This document shows positions 19,973-38,332 of a stretch of DNA of 64,000 bases, in pieces; within the stretch, counting starts at the first letter, position 1, and the number at the start of each line of letters is the position of its first letter. Source of the stretch: Vibrio penaeicida. Lineage in GTDB: Bacteria > Pseudomonadota > Gammaproteobacteria > Enterobacterales > Vibrionaceae. The notes under the pieces were generated by a model that saw only the letters and a program-made list of their open reading frames with translations, did not search any database and was not told the DNA's origin. The DNA lies in contig NZ_AP025145.1 of NCBI RefSeq assembly GCF_019977755.1, positions 248,001 to 312,000 of the forward strand, given 5' to 3'. A program made the translations under genes and the position numbers.

Positions 19973-20037
19973 CACACTGGCTTATAAGAAACGCTTTTAC
20001 TGGCATAGACTTATAACTATAAGCGATGGTACTTCTT

Positions 20038-20066
20038 GCCCCTCTACCGGAGGGGCTTTTTTGTTT
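20038..20066 (+). terminator. Terminator of pstSCAB
   Basis: GCCCCTC (20038-20044) pairs with GAGGGGC (20050-20056), followed by TTTTTTGTTTTT. The stop codon of the convergent SnoaL-like gene begins immediately after. Confidence 0.85.
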
Positions 20067-21077
20067 TTAAAGGGGAAGCTGATTGCGGCTGAGTCGACCC
20101 AATACATCGAGACCTTGTTGATGCCAGAAATGCAGCAGGTCGATGAAAATCCAGTTTTCAGCCAGTTTGTTGCCATCGCGTCGGTAGATGTCGATCACTC
20201 GCATATCCACGGGTTTATTGAAGGCGGGCATGCCCATAAAGCCGCCTTTTGGGGTTAATGTCAGGTTTGGCCATCCAAAGAAACCACCGAACTCTCCTTC
20301 GGCTAAACGGCAAATATGCCCGTTGAAGATTCGGTCATCAAACGCCTCACGAAAAGGACCGGAGTGCTGTTTAGCATAACGTTCGATGGTGTAGCTGGCA
20401 CCGATTCCAGCCGGCCCCCACCAGATCATGTCGTCGTGCCACGTGAGTGCCAGTTCTTCCTCCAGAGACAGCGCGTTTTTCCAGTTACCAATGTCACTGA
20501 TCATGCTGTTAATGAGTGCCAGCGTTTTATCACTTTCCTCCGACGGCTGTGTATCAATCATCACTCCGTTGTGGGTCATCGGACCGGGTTGCACCATAAA
20601 TGCCCCCGTTTGTGGCGGAAACGGGTTTACTCCCGCCTGAACCATCAGATGAGGAATGTCGAAGAACATCGCGGTTTGTTGAATTTTGCCATTCGAGACT
20701 TCATGAAACTCGCAGTAGCGTAAAAATGCCATCTTATGAGTCGCTGGAATACCGAGCCAGTTTTGATCCAAAAGCCCCATTAAGTGCCCCATGGACACCA
20801 CCCAAACAGAGGGGGCATCGGACAAACTGTTTTGTGCCGCCATCAGCACGTCTTGTCTGCGCTGAATGCGTTGCAAGGATTGCTTCAATGGTTGCCAGAA
20901 CGATGTGCTCAGTTCATTCAGTGAGTTGATTTCATTAAATGGGTGGCACCCTCTCCATTGGTAATCTTCTGAGGTATGGCGCGCCAGCACTTCCTCCACA
21001 TTTTCTGGGTTGGCGCTGTCTAGCTCTTTGAAAAATGCCAAGACAACCTGCTTGGCATTTTGAGTGTCTGATGACAT
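20067..21077 (-). CDS. Double SnoaL-like (NTF2-fold) protein
   Basis: The 336-residue protein appears to be two NTF2/SnoaL-like domains in tandem. The first covers roughly residues 5-150, ending DIPHLMVQAGVNPFP. The second, 190-330, carries WWGPAGIG, a GWPNLTLTPKGGFMG segment and NWIFIDLLHFWHQQGLDVLG. These motifs recur in the proteins at 27738 and 25850. SnoaL-like folds include cyclases, isomerases, dehydratases and epoxide hydrolases. No signal peptide is present. It is the last gene of the minus-strand arm with an ABC importer, so it probably acts on the imported compound. The specific reaction is unknown. Confidence 0.8.
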   Translation of the reverse strand: MSSDTQNAKQVVLAFFKELDSANPENVEEVLARHTSEDYQWRGCHPFNEINSLNELSTSFWQPLKQSLQRIQRRQDVLMAAQNSLSDAPSVWVVSMGHLMGLLDQNWLGIPATHKMAFLRYCEFHEVSNGKIQQTAMFFDIPHLMVQAGVNPFPPQTGAFMVQPGPMTHNGVMIDTQPSEESDKTLALINSMISDIGNWKNALSLEEELALTWHDDMIWWGPAGIGASYTIERYAKQHSGPFREAFDDRIFNGHICRLAEGEFGGFFGWPNLTLTPKGGFMGMPAFNKPVDMRVIDIYRRDGNKLAENWIFIDLLHFWHQQGLDVLGRLSRNQLPL

Positions 21078-21100
21078 GAATTTTCCTTATATAACCTGAA

Positions 21101-21123
21101 TTCTTGAAGTCACTTGGGTATGG
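21101..21123. repeat. Vibrio-type palindromic repeat, partial copy
   Basis: TTCTTGAAGTCACTTGGGTA matches the right half of the complete element at 50283-50315 (CTTGAGGTCGCTTGGGTATA). It lies between the permease gene and the double SnoaL-like gene. Confidence 0.5.
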
Positions 21124-21127
21124 AACG

Positions 21128-22009
21128 TTAGCCTTTCACTGCGCCAGCGGTTAGCCCTGAAACGATCTGACGCTGGAAGAAAAGCACTAAGAAGAACAGA
21201 GGCACCATGGCAGACACCACAGCGGCAACGGCAAACATCACATTGCCCTCTACCTGAGTTGTGCCAAGGAAGCTGGCGATCTTCGGAATCATGGTTTGAT
21301 TATCTTGGCTGAGCAGCATACCAGTGACGGCAAAATCGTTGTAAGCCAGCAAGAAACTGAACAGCCCAGTTGTAACCACCCCTGGCCACATCACCGGAAT
21401 GATCACGTGGCGAAATGCCTGAAAGCGAGTGCACCCATCCACCATGGCACTCTCGTCCATGTCTTTCGGGATATTCAAAAAGAACGAATGCAACATCCAC
21501 AACGTGAAGGGCTGATTGATGGCCACCAATACAATGATGGTGGTGGGTAAGTGACCCCACAAATTCCATTCAAAGAAAGGCAACAAGTAACCAGAGACCA
21601 AAGATATGTGTGGCATTGCGCGAAATACCAGAGCAATCATTAAAATCCATATCGAGTACCGAAACCCTGAACGTGCCAGCGCATAACCACCGAGCGTGCC
21701 AATGGTCAGAGAAATCACCACCGCGCAAACCACCACGATCATGGTGTTTATAGAAGCGACCCAAAAGCCTTGTTCTACCCATGCACCGTAATAGCCTTTG
21801 AACGTGAATTCACTGCCTGTTTCAACCAGAGTTTTTACTCCGTAGATGGCATTCATCCAGTCTGACTTTGAAAAGAAATCGCCCTGAACTTTAAAGGAGC
21901 CCCAGGTTGTCCATAAAAATGGACCTGCGGCAACAATCAACCATCCGATCACAAACAAAATCGAGGCGGTTTTCAGCCATGGGGATTTTTTATCTATTGC
22001 TTGTTCCAT
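21128..22009 (-). CDS. Carbohydrate-type ABC transporter permease (MalG-like)
   Basis: About 293 residues with six helices. The coupling loop reads ESAMVDGCTRFQAFRHVIIP with the EAA-type pattern of carbohydrate importers. The start at 22009 has AGGAG eight bases upstream; the ATG at 22015 is too close to it. It pairs with the adjacent MalF-like permease, whose stop lies 11 bp upstream. The system imports an unknown, probably sugar-like or polyol-like, compound together with the binding protein at 23123 and the ATPase at 24783. Confidence 0.93.
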   Translation of the reverse strand: MEQAIDKKSPWLKTASILFVIGWLIVAAGPFLWTTWGSFKVQGDFFSKSDWMNAIYGVKTLVETGSEFTFKGYYGAWVEQGFWVASINTMIVVVCAVVISLTIGTLGGYALARSGFRYSIWILMIALVFRAMPHISLVSGYLLPFFEWNLWGHLPTTIIVLVAINQPFTLWMLHSFFLNIPKDMDESAMVDGCTRFQAFRHVIIPVMWPGVVTTGLFSFLLAYNDFAVTGMLLSQDNQTMIPKIASFLGTTQVEGNVMFAVAAVVSAMVPLFFLVLFFQRQIVSGLTAGAVKG

Positions 22010-22020
22010 GTGCATTTCTC

Positions 22021-23052
22021 CTACGCGGGTTTCTTGTTAAATCCACGCCAGGTGCGGATCAGTACAGGGGTAAGCAGAATGGCAATACCCACAATGGTTA
22101 ACATGGAAGTGGCTGCTGCGGAGCCAAAGAGCTGTGCGTCGCCTTCTTTCAGATCGTGATAAATGATCCAGCTTAGCGAGGTGGCGTTGGCTTCGGCAGC
22201 AAACCCGACAATCGGCTCAAATACGCGGAAGTTATCCATCAACTGCATCAGGGCAACAAACGTTAACAACGGTGCCATATGCGGAATCACAATATAACGA
22301 ATACGTTCCCAGCGAGATGCCCCGTCGATCATCGCTGCTTCAACCGTATCCGTTGGCACGGTCTGTAATCCGGCATAGAACACGATGAAAGAGAAGGGAA
22401 TCGAGTGCCAGACGCCATACACAAACAAAGTGATCCAAGTGAGCGTTGGTGACGCTTTCAACGATAAATCAGGATCATCAAATAAGATTTGTAGGGAAGC
22501 GCCAATCACACCGTCGGCATCGATCATCCAGAACAGAATCAACGAACCAATAAGTGGCGTAACAATCATGGGCAGTAAGGAGAAGAAGATGGTCGGCCCC
22601 TTAAAAAACTTGGGCAGTGCATTCACACCAAGCGCGACAAGCATCCCCAAAACGATCACCATCGGCGTAACAATAAAGGTATAACTGAGGGTAAAAATTA
22701 GCGCCTTGTAAAACGGCATATTCAGCAGTTTCGAGGTGAAATCAGACAGAGAGTCTGAGCTATCCCACGCTTCGCCCACTTCGGAAAACGCCAGATGATT
22801 TCGGTTGGTGTAGGTGCCAAACCCGTTGAATCGCCCTAAAGGCTGCTCCTCACGCAGTTTGTTGGTGGCATCCAAATCAATGGCCGTCGTTTTGGAACAG
22901 CCAAAAGGGCCACATTGTTCGGTTTCTATCACCACTTGCTCGTGCTCGACGTAAAGCGACTGCACAAAGATGGAAACGATGGGAAAAGCGATCAACAGAA
23001 TCATGATCGTCAAAGACGGCCACATAAACTGCAAAAAAGTGCGATGGGGCAT
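22021..23052 (-). CDS. Carbohydrate-type ABC transporter permease (MalF-like)
   Basis: About 343 residues from the ATG at 23052, which has GAGGTT upstream; a GTG at 23079 would extend it without a ribosome site. It has a large periplasmic loop after helix 1 (about residues 40-115, with two Cys in EQCGPFGCSKT). The coupling loop EAAMIDGASRWERIRYIVIP is typical of sugar importers. It works with the MalG-like permease. It lies 70 bp after the binding-protein gene. The cysteine pair in the loop could form a disulfide. Confidence 0.93.
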   Translation of the reverse strand: MPHRTFLQFMWPSLTIMILLIAFPIVSIFVQSLYVEHEQVVIETEQCGPFGCSKTTAIDLDATNKLREEQPLGRFNGFGTYTNRNHLAFSEVGEAWDSSDSLSDFTSKLLNMPFYKALIFTLSYTFIVTPMVIVLGMLVALGVNALPKFFKGPTIFFSLLPMIVTPLIGSLILFWMIDADGVIGASLQILFDDPDLSLKASPTLTWITLFVYGVWHSIPFSFIVFYAGLQTVPTDTVEAAMIDGASRWERIRYIVIPHMAPLLTFVALMQLMDNFRVFEPIVGFAAEANATSLSWIIYHDLKEGDAQLFGSAAATSMLTIVGIAILLTPVLIRTWRGFNKKPA

Positions 23053-23122
23053 ACGTATAACCTCAATGCCAAACACCACTCCCTCTGACTCTACTCAAGC
23101 GAGAGGGAATGGGAGAAGTGAA

Positions 23123-24364
23123 TTACAAGAAGCCCTGTTCTTTCGCAGACGCGGTATAAGCAGCTTCGGCATCTTTCAATGCCTGTTCTGCCGACTCTTT
23201 GCCTTGCAGGAAGTCGGACAATTCAGAGCCAAGTGCAGAGTGGAGAGACCCCATATAAGGCAGCATTGGGTATGGGCGCGCTTTGTTTTGCACTGAGTCG
23301 ATCACCCCTTTAGCCGCATCGTTAGGTTGGTAGCCTTCAATCAGCCACACTGCTTTTTCGCTGTTGGCTTTCATCATTTCCGTTGAGGTCGCTTTAACCA
23401 TGACTTTGAACGTCGCTTCGGCATCTTCGTCTGAAAGGTTCTTAGAAACGGTCCAGCCATCCCACCATAATGTGGTAGCAGGCAAACCGCCTTTCTCCAG
23501 TGATGGCGTGCTGACCAAACGAGTCGAAGCCACAATATCTGATTCTGAGCCTTCGTCGTCCAAGATGGCGCTACCACGAGACCCCCACATCACAGCAAAC
23601 GCCACTTTTCCGTCTTCCCACAAAGACTGCGTCACGTTGGAATCAAACGTTAGATAGTCTGGGTTAGACAGTTCCGTCAGGGCTTTGAGCGTATTCAGCG
23701 CTTTCACGCCCATCGCATTATTGATATTGGGCTGTGCACTGCTGCCTTTAAAGAAATCACCACCTGTAGCGCTGTACATATTGATGAACTCTTCACCGAG
23801 GTTCCAACCCGTTTTGGTGTTTAAGGCAATAGGGTTAGCCATGATGTCTTTGTCGCGAATAACTTTTGCTGCAGCAATCAACTCGTCGTAGGTAGTCGGT
23901 GGCTCTACGCCAGCCAACTTAAGGATATCTTCGCGGTAGAAGAGGTGTTGGCTGTTCGCCATAAATGCCACCGCCATCACCTTACCGTCGACACGAATCA
24001 ATTGAGAAGGTTGTAGGCTGGCACCGTACTTGGCGACCAAGTCATCCAAAGGGCGAACCAAGCCTTCGTTGAGCAGCGGGACAATCGAGCTGGTTGAGAC
24101 GATTGCGCTTGAATATTTCGCAGGGTTGGCTTTGAGTGCCGCTACCTGAAGGTTGCGATGGTCTTTTGTCTGGTTTTTGGACACCGTGACTTTATCGCTG
24201 GCGCACGTTTCTGCCATGTTGGCCACGGCGTGCAATGCAGGGAAGTCGTTGGAAAGAATGCTTACTTTACCCGACTCTACTCCACAACTCGCGTACACAT
24301 TGCTTGCGCTGGCGATGGCGACGGTGGCCGCAGCACGCAACGCCCATTGAGTTACATTTGCCAT
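23123..24364 (-). CDS. ABC transporter extracellular solute-binding protein (family 1 type)
   Basis: About 413 residues from the ATG at 24364, which has AAAGGAG upstream. The signal peptide ends near VYAS/CGVE; the Cys after it is not in a clear lipobox. The body resembles sugar-binding proteins of ABC importers (LFYREDILKLAGVEPPTTYD, then LWEDGKVAFAVMWGSRGS and TTLWWDGWTVSKN). It binds the substrate in the periplasm for the two downstream permeases. It is divergent from the ATPase gene across a 418-bp AT-rich region that probably contains the LacI-controlled promoters. Confidence 0.93.
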   Translation of the reverse strand: MANVTQWALRAAATVAIASASNVYASCGVESGKVSILSNDFPALHAVANMAETCASDKVTVSKNQTKDHRNLQVAALKANPAKYSSAIVSTSSIVPLLNEGLVRPLDDLVAKYGASLQPSQLIRVDGKVMAVAFMANSQHLFYREDILKLAGVEPPTTYDELIAAAKVIRDKDIMANPIALNTKTGWNLGEEFINMYSATGGDFFKGSSAQPNINNAMGVKALNTLKALTELSNPDYLTFDSNVTQSLWEDGKVAFAVMWGSRGSAILDDEGSESDIVASTRLVSTPSLEKGGLPATTLWWDGWTVSKNLSDEDAEATFKVMVKATSTEMMKANSEKAVWLIEGYQPNDAAKGVIDSVQNKARPYPMLPYMGSLHSALGSELSDFLQGKESAEQALKDAEAAYTASAKEQGFL

Positions 24365-24782
24365 GTTTTCTACTCCTTTAGCTGGCAGCATCAAGTGGGC
24401 AATACCACGATAGGCGGCTGGTTTCTTTGTTCGACGACGTCGACAACTCAGCGGCGTTTCCTTGCCCTTTTCCTAAAAAATGGGAACGTATGCAAAAATC
24501 CTATGCTTTAAAGTTACTTTTGATCAAGATTTGTATTTATTTTGTAAATAAATTGTGATTGTTGATTTAATTGTTTGATTAATAAAGATTTATATTGATT
24601 TTTGAATATTTTGGATGTTGTCGTAACTTATTGAATTACTAAAAATATCCGGGTTTTTATACTTTTTGATTGAATTGTTATTAGTGTGATCACCTTCTAA
24701 TTTGCTTAAATTGTGACCTTGTTGATTAAAAAGTCGTCTGATAATTTTGAATACGTACCCAAGATTTGAAAAAGGACATTTC
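24365..24782. promoter_or_regulatory. Divergent promoter region of the SnoaL/HisD island
   Basis: About 418 bp separate the two arms of the island. The middle is strongly AT-rich, and several TGTGA half-sites (24556, 24687, 24714) could belong to CRP sites. CGACGTCG near 24434 and GTTGTCGTAAC near 24618 are the only CG-centred quasi-palindromes I see as LacI operator candidates. None is convincing alone. Confidence 0.4.
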
Positions 24783-25853
24783 ATGGCGGAAATACAACTA
24801 CGACACGTTAATAAGCGATGGGGCGGATTTATCGGGGTCAACGATTTTGATTTGACGATCTCTGATCAGGAGTTCCTCGTTTTGCTTGGTCCGTCTGGTT
24901 GTGGAAAAACCACGACCATGAGAATCATAGCAGGGCTTGAAAGCGTTTCTGATGGCGAAATTCTGATTGACGGAGAAGTGGTGAACGAGCTTGAACCAAA
25001 GGATCGAGACGTCGCCATGGTGTTCCAGAGCTATGCGTTGTATCCGAATATGACGGTGTATGAAAACATCCGCTTTCCGCTCAAGGTACGTAAGATCGAC
25101 CCAGAAACCCACGATGAGAAAGTCATGAAAGCTGCGGAGATGGTCGAGCTCAATGAATTTTTGCATCGCAAACCTTCTGAGTTATCGGGCGGTCAGCGTC
25201 AGCGTGTGGCTTTAGCGCGGGCGATTGTACGTGAGCCAAATGTCTTTTTAATGGATGAACCCTTATCTAACCTCGATGCTAAATTGCGTGTCTCAACACG
25301 AGCACAAATCAAAAACCTAACGCACGAGCTCAAAGTCACCACCATTTACGTAACCCACGATCAAATCGAAGCCATGACTCTGGCCGATCGCGTTGTTGTC
25401 ATGAACAAAGGGGTGGTTCAGCAAGTGGGTTCCCCAACCGAGATTTACAACAACCCAGCTAATACCTTTGTGGCGAGCTTTATTGGTTCTCCTGCCATGA
25501 ACTTGGTGGAAGGCACAATAACCAACGGTACATTCGAAGCTGAGGGGATCACAATTTCTGGTCTGGATGCTTCGCTGTCTGGCAAGGTTACATTGGGTTT
25601 CAGGGCAGAGGACGCCAGTTTGAACGGCGAATCTGCTCAAGTTCAGGCTAACGTTTACTCCATGGAGCTTTTGGGTGACGCCACCATGATCACCACCAAA
25701 GTTGGTCAGGCATTTGTCGCAATCAAGGCAGACAAAGATTTCAGAATCGATATTGGTCAGCCCTTTTCGGCACACATTCCTATTGCTTCATGCCACCTGT
25801 TCGATGCACAAACTGGAGCGCGAATTTCCCCTGTTTTGGCGGAGGCATCATGA
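24783..25853 (+). CDS. ABC transporter ATPase (MsmK/UgpC/MalK type)
   Basis: About 356 residues from the ATG at 24783, with AAAGGACA upstream. It has Walker A GPSGCGKTT, signature LSGGQRQR, Walker B VFLMDEPLSNLDAKLR and switch His in VTHDQIEAM. A C-terminal TOBE-type domain (LGFRAEDASL and following) is typical of carbohydrate importers. It powers the permeases encoded on the opposite strand from the same promoter region. Its stop codon overlaps the next gene as ATGA. These ATPases sometimes serve several importers. Confidence 0.95.
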   Translation: MAEIQLRHVNKRWGGFIGVNDFDLTISDQEFLVLLGPSGCGKTTTMRIIAGLESVSDGEILIDGEVVNELEPKDRDVAMVFQSYALYPNMTVYENIRFPLKVRKIDPETHDEKVMKAAEMVELNEFLHRKPSELSGGQRQRVALARAIVREPNVFLMDEPLSNLDAKLRVSTRAQIKNLTHELKVTTIYVTHDQIEAMTLADRVVVMNKGVVQQVGSPTEIYNNPANTFVASFIGSPAMNLVEGTITNGTFEAEGITISGLDASLSGKVTLGFRAEDASLNGESAQVQANVYSMELLGDATMITTKVGQAFVAIKADKDFRIDIGQPFSAHIPIASCHLFDAQTGARISPVLAEAS

Positions 25854-26377
25854 AAGGTTCAAGACCTCAGCAAGCAGAATTATCCCGCGATACTGATATG
25901 AGCAAAACCGACGAAACCCGAGCGGTGATCGAAGGCATGGTAGACGGGTTAAACGATCACCGAATCGACGACATAGGTCAGTTTTTCTCGCAGCAGTTTC
26001 GTTGGTTAGGCAACCAAGGATGTGGCAGAAAAAACGGGCTGCAAGAATTTCAAGAAAACTGGCAACGACCTTTTCAAGCAGCGTTTTCCGACAAATCGTG
26101 CGTTGATGAAGCGCGTTTGTATATGGGGGAATGGGCAGCAGCATTTGGTCGACAAGAAGCCACACACAGCGGTGAGTTTATGGGGGTTGCCCCTACCGGA
26201 AAAAAAGTGGAAATCCGCTATATGGATTTCTGGAAAGTGCAGGATGGAAAAATCGTCGACAACTGGGTCATGGTGGATTTTCCCCATGTACTTGCACAGT
26301 TAGGGGTGGATGTCTTCAACGGTGAAGGTTGGGAAGCCTACGACCGGGGTGAACGAACCCCACCAAGACCACAGTGA
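25850..26377 (+). CDS. Single-domain SnoaL-like protein
   Basis: 175 residues from the ATG at 25850, which overlaps the ATPase stop codon and has GGAGG upstream. One NTF2/SnoaL-like domain is visible: residues 30-60 hold an FRWLGNQGCG-like segment that corresponds to the W.GPAGIG motif of its paralogues. Residues 120-160 read GVAPTGKKVEIRYMDFWKVQ then DGKIVDNWVMVDFPHVLAQL. This last block is shared with the protein at 27738. A role in isomerisation, dehydration or hydrolysis of the imported substrate is inferred from the fold. Its tight coupling to the ATPase gene suggests constant co-expression. Confidence 0.85.
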   Translation: MKGSRPQQAELSRDTDMSKTDETRAVIEGMVDGLNDHRIDDIGQFFSQQFRWLGNQGCGRKNGLQEFQENWQRPFQAAFSDKSCVDEARLYMGEWAAAFGRQEATHSGEFMGVAPTGKKVEIRYMDFWKVQDGKIVDNWVMVDFPHVLAQLGVDVFNGEGWEAYDRGERTPPRPQ

Positions 26378-26399
26378 TAGAAGCAGTCAAACAGGATGA

Positions 26400-27719
26400 A
26401 TGGAAATCATGACCATTGAATATTTAAAAAGCAGCAAACCAGAGCAGGACAAAGCGTCAGATAACGCCAAGGTTGCCTCTGTGGTCGCCGATACACTGGT
26501 GTACATTGAGAGCGACGGCGACAAAGCGGTACGTGAACTGTCTGAAAAATTCGACAACTATTCCCCAGACTCATTCCGACTCTCTGAAGAACAGATCCAA
26601 GCTCTGATCGCCAAAGTGCCAGAGCGAGATTTGGCGGATATTCAATTTGCACACGACCAAGTAGTTAATTTTGCCAAAGCACAGCGCGATTCCATGCAAG
26701 ATATCGAAGTGGAGACACTGCCCGGTGTGATATTAGGTCACAAGCATATTCCGGTGCAAAGTGTTGGCTGCTATGTCCCTGGTGGAAAATTCCCCATGGT
26801 GGCTTCGGCGCATATGTCGGTAGCGACTGCTAAAGTGGCAGGGGTTCCGCGAATTGTAGCTTGCACTCCTCCCTTTAAAGGCGAACCGAACCCAGCGGTT
26901 GTAGCGGCTATGCACATCGGTGGTGCCGATGAAATATACGTGATTGGCGGCATTCAGGCTGTAGGCGCTATGGCCATTGGTACCGACACCATCGACCCTG
27001 TTCACTTGTTGGTAGGCCCAGGAAATGCCTTTGTGGCAGAAGCCAAGCGTCAGCTTTTCGGACGCGTGGGCATCGACCTTTTTGCCGGTCCAACCGAAAC
27101 CATGGTGATTGCCGACGATACCGTCGATGCTGAAATGTGTGCCACAGATTTGTTAGGTCAAGCGGAGCACGGGTTTAACTCCCCCGCGGCTTTGGTGACC
27201 AACAGCCGAAAACTGGCGGAAGACACCATGGCTGAAATTGAACGCATCCTTAAGATTCTGCCGACGGCGGAAACGGCGTCTGCCAGTTGGGAAGACTATG
27301 GTGAAATCATACTCTGCGACAGTTACGAAGAAATGCTGCAAGTCTCGGAAGACAAAGCGTACGAGCACGTGCAAGTGATGACGGATCGCGACGACTGGTT
27401 CCTAGAAAACATGACCTGCTACGGTGGTTTGTTCTTGGGAGCAAGAACCAACGTCGCTAACGGCGACAAGGTGATCGGAACCAACCACACTCTGCCAACC
27501 CAAAAAGCGGGACGCTACACTGGCGGGTTATGGGTAGGTAAATACCTGAAAACCCACAGCTACCAAAAAGTAACAACCGATGAAGCCGCCACACAGATAG
27601 GTGAATACGGTTCGCGGCTTTGTATTCTGGAAGGGTTTGTTGGTCATGCCGAGCAGTGCAACTTGCGAGTGCGTCGCTATGGCAATAAAGACGTTCCCTA
27701 CGGGCAACCGGCGCAGTAA
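26400..27719 (+). CDS. HisD-like NAD-dependent dehydrogenase (catabolic histidinol dehydrogenase family)
   Basis: The 439-residue protein has the histidinol dehydrogenase fold: [18 protein letters not shown] near residue 121, [15 protein letters not shown], and DLFAGPTE. The four zinc ligands are all recognisable: Gln and His in GQAEHG (about 254), Asp and nearby His in [13 protein letters not shown] (about 355), and His in GFVGHAE (about 413). The family oxidises an alcohol through the aldehyde to the acid. Catabolic members such as HpsN act on dihydroxypropanesulfonate, and this one may be similar. Being in an ABC/SnoaL/SDR operon, it is not the histidine biosynthetic enzyme. The ATG at 26409 is an alternative start. 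Confidence 0.88.
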
Positions 27720-27737
27720 CGGTTGATAGAGGTGGCA

Positions 27738-28817
27738 ATGTCAGAATCCCAGCAATCAGCAGAGCAGTTATTCAGCCAGCTAGCGCAATGGCGACAGTCT
27801 CTTTATAAGGGAGATATCGCCTCTGCCCGAATGCAGATGGGCTCTGTTTTTGCTTCCGACGCCACGTTTCACATGTGCGCGCCATTTGGGGATTGCTATT
27901 CGCCTGCGGATTGGTTCGACGCTTGTGTTACCTCACTTGCTGATGCGATGCCGGATCTGGAACGGCGTGATTACATTGTTATCTCGGGCATAGATGCCGA
28001 CCAAAATGGGTGGATAGGGTGTGCCGGTTATTACTGCGGCACCTTTATCAAACCTTGGCTGGACATTGCGGCTACCGGGCACTTTGCCCACATGCGGTTT
28101 CACGAATTTTACCGGATGGAAGGCGATGCCATCGTCGAAGCACAAATCATCTGGGATATTCCTGAACTCATGATGCAAGCCAACGCTTGGCCGCTGGTGC
28201 CGTCATTAGGGCGAGAAGGTTTAGTGCCAGCACCTGCCACCTGCGACGGTATCGAAAACAGATGGAGCATCCCTTCGCGGAAATCAGAAAAATCGCAGAA
28301 ATCAGAGGTAAGCCGTCAACACGTTTTGGATATGCTGGAGCACTTACAGCGTTACCCGAGTCAGGGTGGACCTGAAGTGATGGCAATGGATCGATTCTGG
28401 CACCACAACCTAAGCTGGTATGGTCCAGCGGGTATCGGCACCTGTCGAGGCATTGCGGGCTTTCGACACTGGCACCAAATACCGTTTCTCAATGCCATGC
28501 CTGATCGCGGTCAGCACAAAGAGGAAATTCACGCACACTTTTTTGCCTCTGGTGAATACGTCGCGGTGACAGGCTGGCCCAATATGTGTCAGACACTGAC
28601 GCACGGTGGCTGGCTAGGCATCGCCCCATCTGGGAAGAAAATCACCTTACGCAGTCTGGACTTCTGGCGACTGGAAGACGGAAAAATTCGAGAAAACTGG
28701 GTACTGGTGGACTTAATCGACGTCTATTCACAACTCGGTATTGATGTAATTGCCAGAATGAAAGAATTCAATAAAGCTCGTGTGATTGGCGACATCCAAC
28801 TACCACAGGGAATGTGA
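27738..28817 (+). CDS. Double SnoaL-like (NTF2-fold) protein
   Basis: 359 residues from the ATG at 27738, preceded by GAGGTGG. Two SnoaL-like domains are joined by a Ser/Lys-rich linker around residues 175-190. The first ends WDIPELMMQANAWPLVPS, as in the protein at 20067. The second carries SWYGPAGIGT, TGWPNMCQTLTHGGWLGIAP and the DFWRLEDGKIRENWVLVDLI block. Conserved His, Trp and Asp residues repeat in both halves. It follows the HisD-like gene by 18 bp and precedes the SDR by 1 bp. It is very likely an enzyme of the pathway, but I cannot name the reaction. Confidence 0.8.
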   Translation: MSESQQSAEQLFSQLAQWRQSLYKGDIASARMQMGSVFASDATFHMCAPFGDCYSPADWFDACVTSLADAMPDLERRDYIVISGIDADQNGWIGCAGYYCGTFIKPWLDIAATGHFAHMRFHEFYRMEGDAIVEAQIIWDIPELMMQANAWPLVPSLGREGLVPAPATCDGIENRWSIPSRKSEKSQKSEVSRQHVLDMLEHLQRYPSQGGPEVMAMDRFWHHNLSWYGPAGIGTCRGIAGFRHWHQIPFLNAMPDRGQHKEEIHAHFFASGEYVAVTGWPNMCQTLTHGGWLGIAPSGKKITLRSLDFWRLEDGKIRENWVLVDLIDVYSQLGIDVIARMKEFNKARVIGDIQLPQGM

Positions 28818-28818
28818 T

Positions 28819-29586
28819 ATGAAAATTCTTCCAACTTCACCCGGATTCGATTTAACAGGCAAGCGAGCATTGGTTTGCGGTGCATCGTCGGGTATTGGAT
28901 TGGGGTGCGCTGTTGCACTAGCAGAAGCAGGGGCTCACGTTACGCTTGCAGCGCGCAGAACGGATTTGCTTGAAGAGGTTAAACAGCAGTTTGAACGCCA
29001 GCAGTGGCAGGTCGACGTTCTACACATGGATGTTGCGGATATTGAAGGCACTCAGGCACTGATTGAGCAGCAAGAAACGTTTGATGTGATGGTGAACTCC
29101 GCTGGGCTAGCTCGCCATTCCGATGCGCTATCGACTCAGCCTGACGACTACGACGCCGTGATGAATGTGAATGTGAAAGGGGCGTATTTCTTGTGTCAGG
29201 CAGTGGCGAAAAAGCTGATTGACGCCAACCAAGGCGGAAGCCTCATCACCATATCGAGCCAGATGGCACACGTTGGCGGGCTTGAGCGCGCTGTTTACTG
29301 CGCCTCAAAGCATGCGGTGGAGGGGTTTACCAAAGCCATGGCCATCGAATGGGGCAAGAACCAAGTACGGGTCAATACCATTTGCCCGACTTTCATCAAA
29401 ACAGAATTAACAAAAAGCACGTTTGAAAACCCTGATCTCCGAGCGTGGATTGAGAGCAAAATCCACATTGGAAGAGTGGGAGAAGTCGAAGATGTGATGG
29501 GCGCGGTGGTGTTCCTTGCCAGTGATGCGTCCGCCATGATCACCGGCACTTCGCTGCGTGTGGACGGAGGTTGGACAGCAGAATAA
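28819..29586 (+). CDS. Short-chain dehydrogenase/reductase
   Basis: 255 residues from the ATG at 28819, just after the previous stop. The cofactor motif GASSGIG is at about residue 21, NSAG near 94, and the catalytic Ser plus YCASK at about 160. The C-terminus GTSLRVDGGWTAE is typical of classical SDRs. It would oxidise or reduce a hydroxyl/keto group of the pathway intermediate with NAD(P). Its stop codon overlaps the ATG of the LacI gene by one base. Together with the HisD-like enzyme it gives the pathway two dehydrogenases. Confidence 0.95.
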   Translation: MKILPTSPGFDLTGKRALVCGASSGIGLGCAVALAEAGAHVTLAARRTDLLEEVKQQFERQQWQVDVLHMDVADIEGTQALIEQQETFDVMVNSAGLARHSDALSTQPDDYDAVMNVNVKGAYFLCQAVAKKLIDANQGGSLITISSQMAHVGGLERAVYCASKHAVEGFTKAMAIEWGKNQVRVNTICPTFIKTELTKSTFENPDLRAWIESKIHIGRVGEVEDVMGAVVFLASDASAMITGTSLRVDGGWTAE

Positions 29587-30602
29587 TGGCAAATGAAAAA
29601 GTTACCTCAACCGATGTCGCCAAACACGCTGGTGTAAGCCAATCTGCGGTGAGCCGCGTATTCACGCCTGGTGCATCGGTCTCACAGAAAACCATGGACA
29701 AAGTGAAGAAAGCGGCGGATGAGCTTGGGTATCGCCCCAATTCACTGGCACGAGCTATGGTTTCGGGCAAAAGCCGAATCATTGGTTTAATTGTGGCGTA
29801 TCTGGATAACCAGTTTTACCCCGACGCATTAGAAAAACTCTCCAACTCTCTGCAAGAACAGGGCTACCACGTTCTGATGTTTATGGCATCCAAAACAGCA
29901 GACTCCATCGACTCTGTGGTGGAAGAGATTCTGGATTATCAGGTCGATGGCATTATCGCGGCCTCAGTAGCCATGACTTCAGAGCTCGCCGAGCGGTGCC
30001 GTCAAGCCAACGTGCCCATTGTGTTGTTCAACCGCTCGCAGGAAGAAGGGGATTTTTCTGCGGTGACCTCAGACAACTTTGTTGGTGGTTTGAAAGCCGC
30101 TCAGTTCCTGATTCGGGGTGGTCATAAGAAATTCGGCTACATTGCAGGTTGGGAAGGCGCGTCGACTCAGCGCGATCGCGAACTGGGCTTCAAAGCTGGC
30201 TTATCGCAAGAAGGGTTTGAGCTACATGCTAGAGAAATTGGAGATTTTTCGATGGAAAAAGCTAAGGAAGCTACTCGAAATATGTTCCGGAACGATCCAC
30301 CTGATGCGTTGTTTGTTGCCAACGATCACATGGCACTGGCGGTCATGGACACCTTGCGCTTCGAGCTGAATATCAAGGTGCCGGAGGACGTGTCAGTTGT
30401 AGGGTACGACAACGTTCCCGCATCAAGTTGGCCGAGTTATAACCTGACAACACTGAGCCAGCAAGCGGACGCCATGGTTAATGAAACCATACGAATTTTG
30501 CTCCAACAGATTGATGGTGACAGCGCGTCACCCCAGAAAATTGCCATCGGGTCGCCACTCGTGATCCGAGGTTCAGCCAAATTGCCAAAGGACATTAACT
30601 AG
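29586..30602 (+). CDS. LacI family transcriptional regulator
   Basis: 338 residues from the ATG at 29586 (TAATG overlap with the SDR stop). The N-terminal helix-turn-helix is classic (VTSTDVAKHAGVSQSAVSRV), with the hinge helix PNSLARAMVSGKS. It is followed by a sugar-binding-protein-like effector domain ending in an IGSPLVIRGS block. It is embedded in the operon and probably represses the divergent promoters at 24.4-24.8 kb until the imported compound or an intermediate binds. That effector is likely sugar-like, by family habit. Confidence 0.95.
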   Translation: MANEKVTSTDVAKHAGVSQSAVSRVFTPGASVSQKTMDKVKKAADELGYRPNSLARAMVSGKSRIIGLIVAYLDNQFYPDALEKLSNSLQEQGYHVLMFMASKTADSIDSVVEEILDYQVDGIIAASVAMTSELAERCRQANVPIVLFNRSQEEGDFSAVTSDNFVGGLKAAQFLIRGGHKKFGYIAGWEGASTQRDRELGFKAGLSQEGFELHAREIGDFSMEKAKEATRNMFRNDPPDALFVANDHMALAVMDTLRFELNIKVPEDVSVVGYDNVPASSWPSYNLTTLSQQADAMVNETIRILLQQIDGDSASPQKIAIGSPLVIRGSAKLPKDIN

Positions 30603-31574
30603 ATGATGAAAGGATTCGACAGCAAGTTTCAGGACTTCCCCGACTACATACTGTCCATTACCAAAGAGATTTGGGAAGACAGAGGGATTGCGACGCTAGA
30701 GCATTACTATTCGCCCGATATTATCGTTCGCACACCTGCCAGCATTTCAGTCGGAAATGAAGGGGTTATTGCTGCTACCTTGTCGACATTGCATGAATTT
30801 CCAGACAGACAATTACTTGGGGAAGACGTGATTTGGAGTGGCACACCTGAAACAGGTATGTTGTCTTCGCATCGGATCCTGTCTACGGCAACGCATTTAG
30901 GCGACGGTATTTTCGGTAAAGCCACAGGGTCACCATTGAAGTACCGTGTGATCGCTGATTGCCACGCCATCAACAATCAGATCAATGATGAATGGCTGAT
31001 TCGGGATCTGGGTGCCATCGTTAAGCAGATGGGCTGGGATCCAAAACAATATGCTCTCACTCAAATTGAAAATGAGGGGGGATCACAAGCGTGTAACGTG
31101 CCATTTACCCCAGAGCAAGACAAAAACGGACCGTACCAAGGCACCGGAAACGACAACGCCTACGGAAAGCAGTATGCCAATGTGCTCAAGCGCATTATGA
31201 ATGCCGATATTGCCTGCATTAGAAATGAATACGATCGCGCTTGTACCGGTGAATACCCATGTGGTGAAACCATCCACTCTTGGGCTGGGATTGAAGCCTT
31301 CTGGCAAGGGTTACGAGCCAGTTTTCCGAACGCAGAATTTACCATAGAACACCAAATTGGACGCGAAGATCCAATGATGCCACCGAGAGCCGCCATTCGG
31401 TTCTCATTACAAGGAAAGCATGATGGGTGGGGGCGATTTGGCGCACCAACGGGGGCAGACGTTTATGTCATGGCAGCCGCTCATGTCGAGTTTGGCCCTT
31501 GGGGCATTCGACGCGAGTTTGTTGTATTTGACGAGACCTCCGTCTGGAAACAAATCGCTCTGCATACAGGGTAA
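30603..31574 (+). CDS. Double SnoaL-like (NTF2-fold) protein, divergent paralogue
   Basis: The 323-residue protein starts right after the LacI stop, with AAGGAC upstream. The first domain (to about residue 150) includes LEHYYSPDIIVRTPASISVG, typical of SnoaL-like proteins. The second (about 190-315) has the ETIHSWAGIEAFWQGLRASF pattern with a GWGRFGAPTGADVYVMAAAH segment and no recognisable DFW block, so it is less close to the two other double proteins. No signal peptide is seen. It is one of four SnoaL-like proteins in the island. It ends in a TCAACAG element, after which 141 bp separate it from the cupin gene. Confidence 0.75.
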   Translation: MMKGFDSKFQDFPDYILSITKEIWEDRGIATLEHYYSPDIIVRTPASISVGNEGVIAATLSTLHEFPDRQLLGEDVIWSGTPETGMLSSHRILSTATHLGDGIFGKATGSPLKYRVIADCHAINNQINDEWLIRDLGAIVKQMGWDPKQYALTQIENEGGSQACNVPFTPEQDKNGPYQGTGNDNAYGKQYANVLKRIMNADIACIRNEYDRACTGEYPCGETIHSWAGIEAFWQGLRASFPNAEFTIEHQIGREDPMMPPRAAIRFSLQGKHDGWGRFGAPTGADVYVMAAAHVEFGPWGIRREFVVFDETSVWKQIALHTG

Positions 31575-31589
31575 CTCAACAGACCCTAG
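31568..31589. repeat. TCAACAG hairpin element, copy 3
   Basis: AGGGT (31568-31572) and ACCCT (31583-31587) flank a loop that contains TCAACAG. The element includes the stop codon of the SnoaL-like gene, as the two other copies in the window include stop codons. Confidence 0.5.
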
Positions 31590-31715
31590 AGAATTGCAGG
31601 ATCTGGATTGGGCGTTCAAGCTGCTCAACCCGATGAATTTCGCGTATTGCTGACATGACGGATGCACGGCTCTTAGCATTTGCCCGTGTGTTGGAATCCA
31701 AAGGAGATAACGAGA

Positions 31716-32675
31716 ATGGAAAGCCCACAATGGGTGCGATTTGGGGAACTCAAACCCTGTCGCACAGCATTTATTGATGCTCATACACCCGGTTCATCAC
31801 AAAAAGAAAACTTCACGATTATTGGCGGGGGAGTCTCAGAGAGCCCTGACCAGCATGTGCACATCACCGCCACGCCGGGCTTCAATATTGGAGCAGCAGG
31901 CCAACCGCCAAAGTGTTTTAACTCATTGCATTATCACCATACGGCAGAAGTTTTTTTCGTGTTGAAAGGTCGCTGGCGTTTCTTCTGGGGGCATGATGGT
32001 AAAGCCGGAGAGGTGACGTTATCGGAAGGCGATATCTTCAATATCCCAACACACGTTTTCCGAGGTTTTGAAAACGTTGGGACCGATTACGGCATGATCA
32101 TGTCCATTCTGGGCGGCGATGATGCAGGCGGTGGCGTTGTATGGGCGCCTCAGGTATTGGAAGACGCTGTTTCTCATGGTTTAAAACTGAGTGAAACCGG
32201 CAGGCTCTACGACAGCAAAAAAGGGGAAAACCTCCCTGAAGGCGTGAAAGAGATGCCTATGCTGACTCAAGACGAACTTGACCAGATTGGTCAGCCAAGT
32301 GTTAGCGAAGTTGTCCCGAAATACGTGGCACGTTACCTCGATATGATGGCTCTGGCGGACGAGAAGCCATGCAGTGTGATCGGTGAAAATGCCCTTATCG
32401 TCGATAAGCCTGGTTTTGAAGTCGATTTCTTTAACCACAATACACCGCAAGCCGAGTCGTATCACGCAGAGCAGGATCAGGTTTTGATGGTCATGTACGG
32501 TCATTGGCAAGTTCAGTGGGGGCAAGACGCCGTCACTTTAAATCCGGGTGACACCATCTGGATGCCAGCTGGCAGTGACTACTCACTTTCGGTGACTGCG
32601 TCTGGCGACGCAAGTTTGTACCGAATCAGTAAGACACTCGATAGTGCCGGACCAACATGGACTCCCAAACGATGA
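31716..32675 (+). CDS. Bicupin domain protein
   Basis: 319 residues from the ATG at 31716, with AAAGGAG upstream; the in-frame ATG at 31680 lacks a site. The N-terminal cupin has a full metal-binding set: LHYHHTAEVFFVLKGRWRFF then DIFNIPTHVFRGFEN (His, His, Glu, His). The C-terminal cupin (about residue 210 onward, YHAEQDQVLMVMYGHWQVQW) keeps one His and an acidic/polar pattern and looks degenerate. Bicupins include gentisate dioxygenase and quercetinase, as well as isomerases. It overlaps the hydrolase gene by ATGA. An oxygenase or isomerase step in the pathway is possible. Confidence 0.85.
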   Translation: MESPQWVRFGELKPCRTAFIDAHTPGSSQKENFTIIGGGVSESPDQHVHITATPGFNIGAAGQPPKCFNSLHYHHTAEVFFVLKGRWRFFWGHDGKAGEVTLSEGDIFNIPTHVFRGFENVGTDYGMIMSILGGDDAGGGVVWAPQVLEDAVSHGLKLSETGRLYDSKKGENLPEGVKEMPMLTQDELDQIGQPSVSEVVPKYVARYLDMMALADEKPCSVIGENALIVDKPGFEVDFFNHNTPQAESYHAEQDQVLMVMYGHWQVQWGQDAVTLNPGDTIWMPAGSDYSLSVTASGDASLYRISKTLDSAGPTWTPKR

Positions 32676-33367
32676 ATACGCCGCTGGTATTGTTGCCCGG
32701 TATGATGTGCGACGAGCGGTTGTTCGCAGCTCAGGTAGCGGAGTTCAGCTCTGAACGTCAGGTTATTGTTTTGCCAGTAACACAAGCCGACAGCATGCAA
32801 GAACTGGCGAAGAAGGTGCTTGAACAAGCGCCTTCCACCTTCGCGCTGGCGGGATTGTCGATGGGTGGCATCGTTGCCATGGAAGTCTTCAGGCAGCAGC
32901 CCGAACGTATTGAACGTCTGGCGCTGCTAGACACGAATCCCCGAGCAGAGTTGGACGAAGTGAAGCAAGGACGAGCAAGGCAGCTGGATCGCGTTGCAAA
33001 AGGCGAGATGCTGAGTGTGATGAGTGAGGAGATGATCCCGAGATATTGCCACCGAGATTTCCCCAATCCCAGTATCGATAAGCTTTGCCTAGACATGGCA
33101 AATGGACTGGGGGACGAGGTGTTTGTTCGTCAGTCGCTGGCGTTGCGTGATCGCCCCGATCAGCAACAAACGCTGGCCACTGTCACTCAGCCGACCCTGA
33201 TTCTGGCTGGGGAAGACGATCAGCTTTGCCCGTTAGACAGACACGAATGCATGAAGGCGTTAATTCCACATGCCACACTTACCCTGATCCCCAAAGCGGG
33301 GCACCTGACAACTTTAGAGCAACCGGAGGCGACAAACGCCGCTTTGCGTGCGTGGTTAGAATCATGA
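32672..33367 (+). CDS. Alpha/beta hydrolase
   Basis: 231 residues from the ATG at 32672, which overlaps the cupin stop as ATGA. It has an alpha/beta hydrolase oxyanion region (LLPGMMCDERLF), nucleophile elbow GLSMGG at about residue 63, acid residue in LAGEDDQLCPL and catalytic His in PKAGHLTTLEQP. No signal peptide is seen. It would hydrolyse an ester, lactone or C-C bond of a pathway intermediate. Its stop overlaps the RraA-type gene as ATGA, so cupin, hydrolase and aldolase form a coupled set. Confidence 0.9.
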   Translation: MNTPLVLLPGMMCDERLFAAQVAEFSSERQVIVLPVTQADSMQELAKKVLEQAPSTFALAGLSMGGIVAMEVFRQQPERIERLALLDTNPRAELDEVKQGRARQLDRVAKGEMLSVMSEEMIPRYCHRDFPNPSIDKLCLDMANGLGDEVFVRQSLALRDRPDQQQTLATVTQPTLILAGEDDQLCPLDRHECMKALIPHATLTLIPKAGHLTTLEQPEATNAALRAWLES

Positions 33368-34059
33368 ACGAGTCTTTATTAAAGCTATTACAACGTGTAG
33401 ATACGCCCGCGGTGTGCAATGCCATCGAAGTGGCGCAGGGTAAGCGCGGATTCGACCGTTTTACCAAGCAGACCATGCTGATTTCAGACACTAGGTGCGG
33501 GGCAATGGTGGGCTACGCGAAAACAGCCCAAATTGCTGCGCTAGAACCTGCTCAGGAACCCGCTGATGTGATTCGGGAAAGGCGTATGGCGTATTATCGT
33601 TATATGTCAGAGTCTCCATTCCCTTCTGTTGCTGTGATAGAGGATATCGATTTCCCAAATGCGATTGGTGCTTATTGGGGAGAGCTGAACACCAATGTTC
33701 ATAAAGGGTTTGGGATGAGTGGCGTGGTCACAAACGGTGTGATGCGCGATCTGGGTGATTTGCCGGAAAATTTCCCAGTGCTCGCAGGTTCTATTGGTCC
33801 AAGCCATGGGTTTGTGCACGTAAAAACCATCGATCAGCCTGTCAGTGTGATGGGGTTAAAGGTGGAACCGGGCGAGCTGATTCATGCGGATCGCCACGGC
33901 GCACTGGTGATTCCAAATGAGGTTTTACCTCGCTTAGAAACCGCCATCACCACCTTGCTGGCTAACGAGCAAATCGTATTGAAAGCCACCAAGCAGGACA
34001 ACTTCGATTTTGAAGCGTTTGAAAAAGCGTGGGCAGAGTTTGAGCGAGTTAGGACTTAA
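33364..34059 (+). CDS. RraA/HMG aldolase-like protein
   Basis: 231 residues from the ATG at 33364, coupled by ATGA to the hydrolase gene. It matches the RraA / 4-hydroxy-4-methyl-2-oxoglutarate aldolase family. GVVTNGVMRDLGDLP holds the Arg-Asp pair used for pyruvate and metal binding, and ADRHGALVIPNEV is the second conserved block. The usual TDG is TNG here and the usual D.DG reads RHG. Catabolic members split 2-oxo acids into pyruvate and a second oxo acid, which would be a sensible final step of the pathway. A role as RNase E regulator RraA is unlikely from context. Confidence 0.85.
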   Translation: MNESLLKLLQRVDTPAVCNAIEVAQGKRGFDRFTKQTMLISDTRCGAMVGYAKTAQIAALEPAQEPADVIRERRMAYYRYMSESPFPSVAVIEDIDFPNAIGAYWGELNTNVHKGFGMSGVVTNGVMRDLGDLPENFPVLAGSIGPSHGFVHVKTIDQPVSVMGLKVEPGELIHADRHGALVIPNEVLPRLETAITTLLANEQIVLKATKQDNFDFEAFEKAWAEFERVRT

Positions 34060-34157
34060 TATCCCCGCGTCTCAGACGTTAGATAGAGTATGTGGAAGTT
34101 TTATCTTTTCTCCCTAAATGATCGCTCAGTAACTTTCTGAGAGGTTCTTCAATGAGA

Positions 34158-34205: not shown

Positions 34206-34586
34206 ATGATTTCACATTTCATTTTTTACGTACTGGATCAGGAAGCAAGCACTCGATTTTACGAACGTGTTCTCCTGTCCAGCCCAGTGCTCAACGTTCC
34301 CGGTATGACTGAGTTTCAATTAGATCGGGGTTCGAAACTTGGATTGATGCCTTACGAGGGGATAAACCGACTGCTAGGTTCACACCTTACTTCACCCGAT
34401 CAGGCATGTGGCAATCCAAATTCCGAGTTGTATCTGATTGTGGATGACCCATTTGAATATCATCAACGCAGCTTAAAGCACGGAGCGACAGAACTCAGCC
34501 CTGTTCAAGAAAGGGATTGGGGGGCTCTGGTTGGATACAGCAAGGATATAGATGGTCACATTTTGGCTTTCGCAAAACCAAGCTAG
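34206..34586 (+). CDS. VOC (glyoxalase/bleomycin-resistance) superfamily protein
   Basis: The 126-residue protein starts at 34206 with GGAGG upstream. The pattern HFIFYVLDQEASTRFYERVL is the first beta-alpha-beta unit of VOC proteins, and DWGALVGYSKDIDGHILAFA is the C-terminal unit. It is single-domain and would work as a dimer. VOC proteins include glyoxalase I, dioxygenases and drug-binding proteins. It is probably a separate unit between the catabolic island and the copper operon. Its substrate is unknown. Confidence 0.9.
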   Translation: MISHFIFYVLDQEASTRFYERVLLSSPVLNVPGMTEFQLDRGSKLGLMPYEGINRLLGSHLTSPDQACGNPNSELYLIVDDPFEYHQRSLKHGATELSPVQERDWGALVGYSKDIDGHILAFAKPS

Positions 34587-34699: not shown

Positions 34700-35146
34700 A
34701 TGAACAGACGATTAAAAACAACCTGGATTACAATGCTCAGCATTGTTGCCTTGTTGTTTTCAGGGTTTGTCACCAGTGCCCCTGTTATGATGATGACAAT
34801 GGCAGAACACCAAATTGAAAGTAACGTTTCTCCTTGTCATGCCAGTTCCTCTCCTATGGCAGATAACCCATCTGCTCACAAATCGCATTCCCCAGACAGA
34901 CCCATTCATTCACTGATGGTGGATAGTGGCAAAAACAACGCGTCAGACGCTTGTTCTTCCGCGTCCCATGAAGGACATACCTGTTGTGCTGCTGTGTGCG
35001 GTGTCACTTTTGTGCCTTTGCTTACTCGTAGCTCGATGAATGTGGCAGACTTTGCCCTTGCCCCTATCGCTTCCATCACTATCGGTGATGCACTTTCTCG
35101 TACTCAATCCCTTTTCCGACCCCCAATCACTGAATCCATTTTCTGA
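34700..35146 (+). CDS. Small exported His/Cys-rich protein of copper operon
   Basis: 148 residues with a hydrophobic N-terminus (ITMLSIVALLFSGFVTSAPV). The rest is rich in His, Ser and Cys: SPCHASSS, AHKSHSPDRPIH and HEGHTCCAAVCG. I do not recognise a named family with certainty; small proteins of this kind occur ahead of CopA/Cus-like genes. The metal-binding residues and position directly behind a CueR-type promoter support a periplasmic or membrane-attached metal-handling role. It is the first gene of the operon, 64 bp before the CusC-like gene. Confidence 0.7.
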   Translation: MNRRLKTTWITMLSIVALLFSGFVTSAPVMMMTMAEHQIESNVSPCHASSSPMADNPSAHKSHSPDRPIHSLMVDSGKNNASDACSSASHEGHTCCAAVCGVTFVPLLTRSSMNVADFALAPIASITIGDALSRTQSLFRPPITESIF

Positions 35147-35210
35147 TTTCACCGCTTCTGAATGAAGCCCGATTTATTGGCGCATTGCGCCCAGATTTTG
35201 GATATACACA

Positions 35211-36614: not shown

Positions 36615-36629
36615 TAAGGGAAACAACAA

Positions 36630-38330: not shown

Positions 38331-38332
38331 GT

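Follow-up and report, generated by a model that had tools for sequence, protein, structure and literature searches.

HisD-fold enzymes act on a CH2OH group beside a carbon bearing OH or NH2, as in histidinol and in 2,3-dihydroxypropane-1-sulfonate (DHPS). According to excerpts of PMC11382572, His126 of CpHpsN contacts the sulfonate and sets HpsN apart from HisD, Lys353 also contacts this group, and the criterion for HpsN is that hpsO and hpsP are found in the neighbourhood. Names for the DHPS locus of R. pomeroyi are given in PMC4334477, whose excerpted text holds nothing on the cluster described here. SnoaL-like proteins of the NTF2 fold form another described group, in which SteC and BaiE dehydrate ring hydroxyls (excerpts of PMC13101464). 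Here, we analyse a cluster of fourteen genes which combines one HisD-like and four SnoaL-like proteins. It lies at 20067–34059 of a 64,000-nucleotide stretch of Vibrio penaeicida (contig NZ_AP025145.1, positions 248,001 to 312,000), which as a whole is called the window. We consider it somewhat more probable than otherwise that this is a LacI-controlled, horizontally spread catabolic cluster which imports a small polyhydroxylated compound and converts it to central metabolites. Four features are seen directly: a conserved gene set and order, an operator shared in relatives, the residues of working enzymes, and a separate dehydrogenase clade beside HpsN.

Genes were called as open reading frames in the window (all fourteen cluster genes are such frames), domains were assigned with Pfam, and NCBIfam equivalogs were applied with their curated cut-offs. 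Conservation was followed in 86 records fetched by one cluster SnoaL protein or by an alignment of SnoaL-364. The scan with this alignment confirmed at least 580 relatives, of which 80 were kept, and six of 24 matching plasmid records were added; L011 and L012 appear to be a single contig filed twice. A family was counted as present at 35% identity or more, and the HisD-like gene at >60% identity. The latter occurs in 66 of the 86 records, and the family counts given below for these HisD-bearing records are lower bounds because contig ends or the 10-kb flank cut many of them. The genes are as follows.

20067..21077, minus strand: SnoaL-336 (336 aa), two SnoaL stretches (Pfam SnoaL), last gene of the minus arm; 51/66 HisD-bearing records
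21128..22015, minus strand: ATP-binding cassette (ABC) permease (PF00528); 57/66
22021..23079, minus strand: ABC permease (PF00528); 56/66
23123..24394, minus strand: periplasmic solute-binding protein of carbohydrate type (PF01547); 55/66
24783..25853, plus strand: UgpC/MalK-type ATPase, likely start 24783 (NF008653, above cut-off); 56/66
25850..26377, plus strand: SnoaL-195, single-domain, 175 aa from its likely start (Pfam SnoaL); 61/66
26400..27719, plus strand: HisD/HpsN-like dehydrogenase, Met at the His126 position of HpsN (PDB relatives, residue alignment, tree)
27723..28817, plus strand: SnoaL-364 (364 aa), two SnoaL stretches (Pfam); 66/66
28819..29586, plus strand: short-chain dehydrogenase/reductase (SDR) oxidoreductase, PF13561 (Pfam), best NCBIfam score with KduD, below cut-off; 60/66
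29586..30602, plus strand: LacI-family regulator (Pfam); 62/66
30603..31574, plus strand: SnoaL-323 (323 aa), two SnoaL stretches (Pfam); 64/66
31716..32675, plus strand: bicupin, likely start 31716 (Pfam cupin, fold model); 63/66
32672..33367, plus strand: alpha/beta hydrolase, PcaD-like (Pfam/NCBIfam), GxSxG in 50/50; 47/66
33364..34059, plus strand: RraA/4-hydroxy-2-oxoacid-aldolase-like protein (PF03737), RD..[DE] in 49/50; 48/66

A divergent region at 24.4–24.8 kb separates the two arms. Outward on the minus arm lie the binding protein, both permeases and SnoaL-336; on the plus arm, the ATPase is followed by SnoaL-195, the HisD-like gene, SnoaL-364, the SDR, LacI, SnoaL-323, the bicupin, the hydrolase and the RraA-like gene. 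Hence the ABC importer is indeed split over divergent arms, with the ATPase apart from its permeases and binding protein, and the LacI gene sits inside the plus arm, as a sequence-only reading of this DNA had described. Pfam likewise finds the four SnoaL-like proteins of that reading above cut-off (in the 336-, 195-, 364- and 323-aa proteins) and one each of the HisD-like, SDR, cupin, alpha/beta hydrolase and RraA-type genes. The ATGA and TAATG links which it saw between enzyme genes amount to three ATGA overlaps (25850, 32672 and 33364) and one TAATG overlap (29584–29588). Judged by start codons, upstream sequence and relatives, the mechanical open reading frames start too far upstream in several cases, and likelier starts would be 24783 (ATPase), 25850 (SnoaL-195), 28819 (SDR) and 29586 (LacI), as well as, again downstream of the mechanical ones, 31716 (cupin), 32672 (hydrolase) and 33364 (RraA-like).

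The gene-neighbourhood search which had been proposed as a check was run, and the same set recurs: all 14 families occur together in 35 of the 66 HisD-bearing records. In 32 of them, the nine genes which code for enzymes and the regulator stand in the window order when intervening genes such as the MetE-like one are disregarded, which supports the earlier claim of a single catabolic unit. The same gene order occurs in Alpha- and Gammaproteobacteria, beyond what chance would lead one to expect. The window's way of splitting the importer recurs in contigs of Grimontia (three), Oceanospirillaceae (two of three) and Ruegeria (three). SnoaL-195 is 74–90% identical to 63 of its 64 relatives and 51% identical to the remaining one. 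Judged by their names, the 80 relatives kept of at least 580 are mostly marine Rhodobacterales; the carriers include a coral isolate, a bryozoan-associated genome and, for the SnoaL part, a saltern archaeon. SnoaL sets are present on a Vibrio pelagius plasmid and in the archaeon Halobellus, where a plasmid of Halobellus limi carries five SnoaL genes in a row (L007 13827–18896).

The HisD/HpsN-like dehydrogenase has DHPS dehydrogenases as its best PDB relatives (405 bits), followed by histidinol dehydrogenases, and the window protein is 46.9% and 50.0% identical to two DHPS enzymes. Residues were compared in 66 cluster proteins of >400 aa, a set which includes the window's protein and two from L021 and differs from the 66-record set. 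The zinc and catalytic residues of HpsN (Q248, H251, E318, H319, D352 and H411) are present in 66/66, K353 and H359 are equally unchanged, and S226 is replaced by Thr in all 66, as in one DHPS enzyme. The His126 position holds Met in 65/66 and Leu in 1/66. The conserved Lys353 is all that speaks for an acidic substrate group. A tree was built from 31 rows: 26 of the 66 cluster proteins, that of L108 and four others, with the long outgroup branches flagged as unsure. In it, the cluster dehydrogenases form their own clade with 100/100 support, and the nearest named HisD-like relative comes from Grimontia (Vibrionaceae). The HisD-like enzyme belongs to a separate clade beside HpsN which lacks the sulfonate-recognising His.

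The V. penaeicida genome also contains a locus in which DctPQM genes of the tripartite ATP-independent periplasmic (TRAP) type, HpsN with His126 kept, an SDR and a zinc-dependent alcohol dehydrogenase (Zn-ADH) follow the HpsNOP pattern (L092 7729–14045; G000:C1, about 1.635–1.641 Mb), so that the DHPS job looks already taken. The clade described here probably acts on something other than DHPS. Identity to the window protein is 45.0% for the second PF00815 protein of this genome, in which His126 is retained. A role as the HisD of histidine biosynthesis was considered and rejected, since a separate PF00815 protein (557 bits, L001; 436 aa), only 32.7% identical, likely fills that job.

Control by the LacI protein was approached through the divergent regions. 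Any CG-centred 18-bp palindrome was sought in 49 of them, and variants of TTTGCATACGTATGCAAA came up in 23. At no more than 1 mismatch over 14 fixed positions, this motif occurs in 45/51 divergent regions, frequently as a pair with copies 54–56 bp apart. It is found 77 times in 22.8 kb of divergent regions and 7 times in 1,664 kb elsewhere, an excess which is partly there by construction because the motif was derived from those same regions. A matrix built from 36 sites yields two candidates in the divergent region of the window:

24479..24496, no strand assigned: candidate LacI operator 1, AATGGGAACGTATGCAAA; 8.3 bits, rank 4 in the window; near the minus arm
24746..24763, no strand assigned: candidate LacI operator 2, TTTGAATACGTACCCAAG; 9.3 bits, rank 2; just 5′ of the likely ATPase start

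A site similar to candidate 1 is present in Grimontia L040, L059 and L071. When the region was shuffled 500 times, 5 shuffles reached the score of candidate 2; a similar site occurs in Grimontia L040 (7.3 bits) and, weaker, in L059 and L071 (2.7 bits). The shared palindrome supports control of both arms by LacI, as had been supposed; the sites of the window itself are weak.

The pst region of three genomes of the same genus (L113, L114 and L115) aligns with the window only up to 20062–20068. G+C content is 0.498 for 20000–34100 and 0.522 in the cus stretch; it is 0.447 left of the former and 0.446 right of the latter. A close relative of SnoaL-195 is found in 2/25 genomes of the genus, its own included, with weaker SnoaL matches in others, and in 13/398 sampled genomes of the phylum: its own and 12 of one other family. 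As SnoaL-195 is rare in the genus and pst synteny ends at the edge, the cluster was probably acquired, which is the simplest reading of its origin. No tRNA marks the edges, and no repeat of 18 or more bases is common to both. On the right, a glyoxalase-like gene (34206–34586) matches nothing in any of the 86 records and was left out of the cluster for this reason. Directly 3′ of the cluster (34700–41455) lie genes for a CopL-like protein and for TolC-like/CusB(-CusF)/CusA heavy-metal efflux. The Cus operon was rejected as a cluster part: in L116 and L117, of the same genus, it sits in 20-kb stretches without a cluster match.

Pfam matches two SnoaL stretches in three of the four SnoaL proteins. 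The model of SnoaL-364 (mean predicted local distance difference test score, pLDDT, 85.5) shows two NTF2-like halves; in Foldseek, its best matches are the epoxide hydrolases Lsd19 and MonB across both halves, with a template modelling (TM) score <0.4, and single-domain SnoaL-type matches include IdmH and SnoaL2. No polyketide synthase is present among 20 proteins scanned over 19.2–41.5 kb, and a biosynthetic polyketide reading was rejected on this ground. Hsh3 (PMC12175502) was tried as another SnoaL/NTF2 precedent and dropped, as it proved, in the excerpt concerned, not to be NTF2-like.

The remaining enzymes retain familiar motifs. The SDR has Y.A.K in 58/63. The cupin protein was modelled with pLDDT 80.9, and the predicted fold is that of a bicupin; Foldseek matches it to quercetin and salicylate dioxygenases and oxalate decarboxylase (13–16% identity and TM about 0.4–0.5 among the 50 matches listed). 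With the two cupin motifs counted separately, HxH...E occurs in 67/67. The hydrolase, with its invariant GxSxG (50/50), scores 95.5 bits against a cut-off of 255.85 for TIGR02427. RD..[DE] is the motif of LigK/HMG (4-hydroxy-4-methyl-2-oxoglutarate) aldolase-type RraA-like domains; the PF03737 domain of the RraA-like protein carries it in 49/50 and reaches 28.6 bits against a curated cut-off of 179 (NF006731) and 30.6 against 304.5. A variant cassette in G005 (L108/L112), of the same genus, is informative for the last step. There, relatives of HisD (66% identity, with Leu126), SDR (31%), cupin (43%) and hydrolase (40%) adjoin an HpcH/HpaI aldolase; genes for a TRAP transporter and a sodium:solute symporter are also there, and no RraA-like gene is found in the 33.9 kb read of this region. 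An aldolase which belongs to a different Pfam family (HpcH/HpaI) and takes the place of RraA supports a retro-aldol, pyruvate-type end step, in line with the pyruvate-releasing aldolase suggested earlier. The binding protein has weak PDB matches only, the best being a sorbitol binder and the sulfoquinovosyl-glycerol binder SmoF.

All steps after import are inferred, and their order is a guess. The carbohydrate-type importer would bring in a polyol-like molecule which contains a –C(OH)–CH2OH unit, and the HisD/HpsN-like enzyme would oxidise the CH2OH of this unit to a carboxylate (four electrons, NAD). The NTF2-fold SnoaL proteins could dehydrate or rearrange ring positions, the SDR may set a ketone, the bicupin may open or modify the ring, the hydrolase would cleave the resulting product, and the RraA-type aldolase would release pyruvate. 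Gadusols and mycosporine-like amino acids (MAAs) are cyclitols by which algae and corals screen UV; they carry a tertiary OH as well as a CH2OH. We hold mycosporine/gadusol-type cyclitols, weakly, to be the likeliest substrate class, as such a compound would suit the dehydrogenase, the dehydratases and a ring opener, as well as the methyl-transfer protein which many species have. On this chemistry, the HpsN-like dehydrogenase would oxidise the ring CH2OH adjoining the tertiary OH, the SnoaL proteins would lead the ring by dehydration towards an aromatic like O-methylgallate, ring opening would fall to the bicupin and hydrolase, the aldolase would yield pyruvate, and in many species the MetE-like protein would take the O-methyl group. 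That the cluster is a widespread breakdown route for MAAs or gadusols is about as weakly held; among the open-licence papers on mycosporines which were listed, no title or abstract deals with bacterial breakdown genes.

Several genes which accompany the cluster elsewhere could bear on the substrate. Accessory families in the 66 HisD-bearing records are MetE-like (43), amidohydrolase (27) and S-adenosylmethionine methyltransferase (15); when the other flanking open reading frames were clustered across records, no family reached more than 8. The MetE-like protein (L004 20613–21737 and relatives) is divergent and cobalamin-independent, and also stands beside the SnoaL genes in Halobellus. The amidohydrolase gene lies near SnoaL-336 (L004 6390–7262 and relatives), and its best NCBIfam score is with L-fuconolactonase, below cut-off. 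In L031 (Halomonas smyrnensis), the cluster is mixed with DAO, Ldh_2, HpcH, 2-hydroxyacid dehydrogenase, Zn-ADH, aminotransferase and TRAP genes; other flanks hold a TonB receptor and a symporter (L107) or ROK and GDPD genes (L106). As substrate clues, the accessory genes of L031, L106 and L107 are suggestive and none is decisive.

A number of results weigh against the catabolic reading or parts of it. Six of the 51 divergent regions have no operator site; that of the window has no motif match at no more than 1 mismatch, its two candidates are degenerate, and the matrix scores highest in the window at 38692–38709 (17.1 bits), inside the CusA gene. The motif-2 His of cupins (IP.H) occurs in only 3/67, which makes a classical cupin dioxygenase role doubtful. 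For the MetE-like protein, the V. penaeicida genome offers no more than a remote homolog (29%), so that the methyl chemistry stays a hint there. The soil carriers Paracoccus alcaliphilus and Ensifer adhaerens count against a purely marine substrate. HisD-like genes are missing from 20/86 records, some of them cut by contig ends; those with importer and SnoaL genes only raise the possibility that the SnoaL proteins act more directly. Nothing points directly to any compound as the substrate.

The preferred reading has to be weighed against three others. The cluster might degrade an open-chain polyol, a betaine-lipid headgroup or an O-methylated sugar: the HisD-like enzyme would oxidise a terminal CH2OH, the SnoaL proteins would carry out beta-elimination, the MetE-like protein would take a methyl group and the aldolase would split a 2-oxo acid. 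We regard this as a real, if minority, possibility, given the carbohydrate-type importer, the LacI regulator, the KduD-like (below cut-off) SDR and a MetE-like gene which occurs in 43/66 records and beside the five SnoaL genes of Halobellus; however, a linear substrate would not obviously need a bicupin and a PcaD-like hydrolase, and Pfam finds no glycosidase among the cluster genes. It is improbable that the SnoaL proteins are binding or regulatory and that the cluster represents two neighbouring systems. Importer and SnoaL loci without another core enzyme do exist (e.g. L046, L047, L049, L050 and L089), and a LysR-type gene stands beside the SnoaL locus of L046, with relatives in six further records, yet in many records the SnoaL genes are intermixed with those for HisD, SDR and cupin in a fixed order, and a single operator region precedes them all.

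Least probable of all, and rejected here, is a variant pathway for DHPS or another sulfonate, in which the HisD-like enzyme would be HpsN and the cluster would feed a sulfonate-cleaving enzyme. The DHPS dehydrogenases among the PDB relatives, the Lys353 kept in 66/66 and, two genes downstream, an SDR from the Pfam family to which HpsO belongs (PF13561) would fit such a route. Against this, His126 is absent in 66/66 proteins, the cluster genes include no Zn-ADH (HpsP) and none which Pfam/NCBIfam names SuyAB, Xsc or CuyA, and the genome has a TRAP–HpsN–SDR–Zn-ADH locus, with His126 kept, at another place.

Since SnoaL-364 has at least 580 relatives and those kept come, by name, mostly from marine Rhodobacterales, the substrate of the cluster is likely to be a common one in the sea. 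The cluster makes a ready test system: it has a single binding protein, a single repressor for which there is a candidate operator, and a dehydrogenase clade whose key recognition residue is unlike that of the nearest characterised enzymes. Were the substrate named, the marine carbon cycle would gain a route, and genes which are now labelled 'histidinol dehydrogenase' or 'ester cyclase' would gain a function.

How does the cluster compare with described systems? The set was not found in open-licence literature, a limited test which agrees with the earlier statement that no named pathway matches. With hpsNOP, it shares a Zn/NAD dehydrogenase of the HisD fold in which the zinc and catalytic residues are kept, and an SDR in the operon. 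It differs by Met for His126, by the separate clade, by an ABC importer instead of a TRAP or major facilitator superfamily transporter, and by the lack of HpsP and of any sulfolyase named by Pfam/NCBIfam; with regard to the hpsO and hpsP neighbourhood, Pfam finds a PF13561 SDR and no Zn-ADH among the cluster genes. BaiE and SteC, by their published description, share the domain family, with ring-hydroxyl dehydration as their activity (excerpts of PMC13101464), whereas the cluster has four paralogues side by side, three with two SnoaL stretches. SnoaL polyketide cyclases have the SnoaL domain in common with all four proteins, each above the Pfam cut-off. Bicupin dioxygenases and oxalate decarboxylase resemble the cluster cupin in the predicted bicupin fold and HxH...E, in contrast to its low identity, its TM of about 0.4–0.5 and a motif-2 His in 3/67. 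LigK-type aldolases for 4-carboxy-4-hydroxy-2-oxoadipate (CHA)/HMG and PcaD-type hydrolases of aromatic ring cleavage share domain families, RD..[DE] and GxSxG, but the cluster proteins score far below the curated cut-offs. The cluster is real and widespread; it is not a new kind of system and assembles known families around a distinct dehydrogenase clade.

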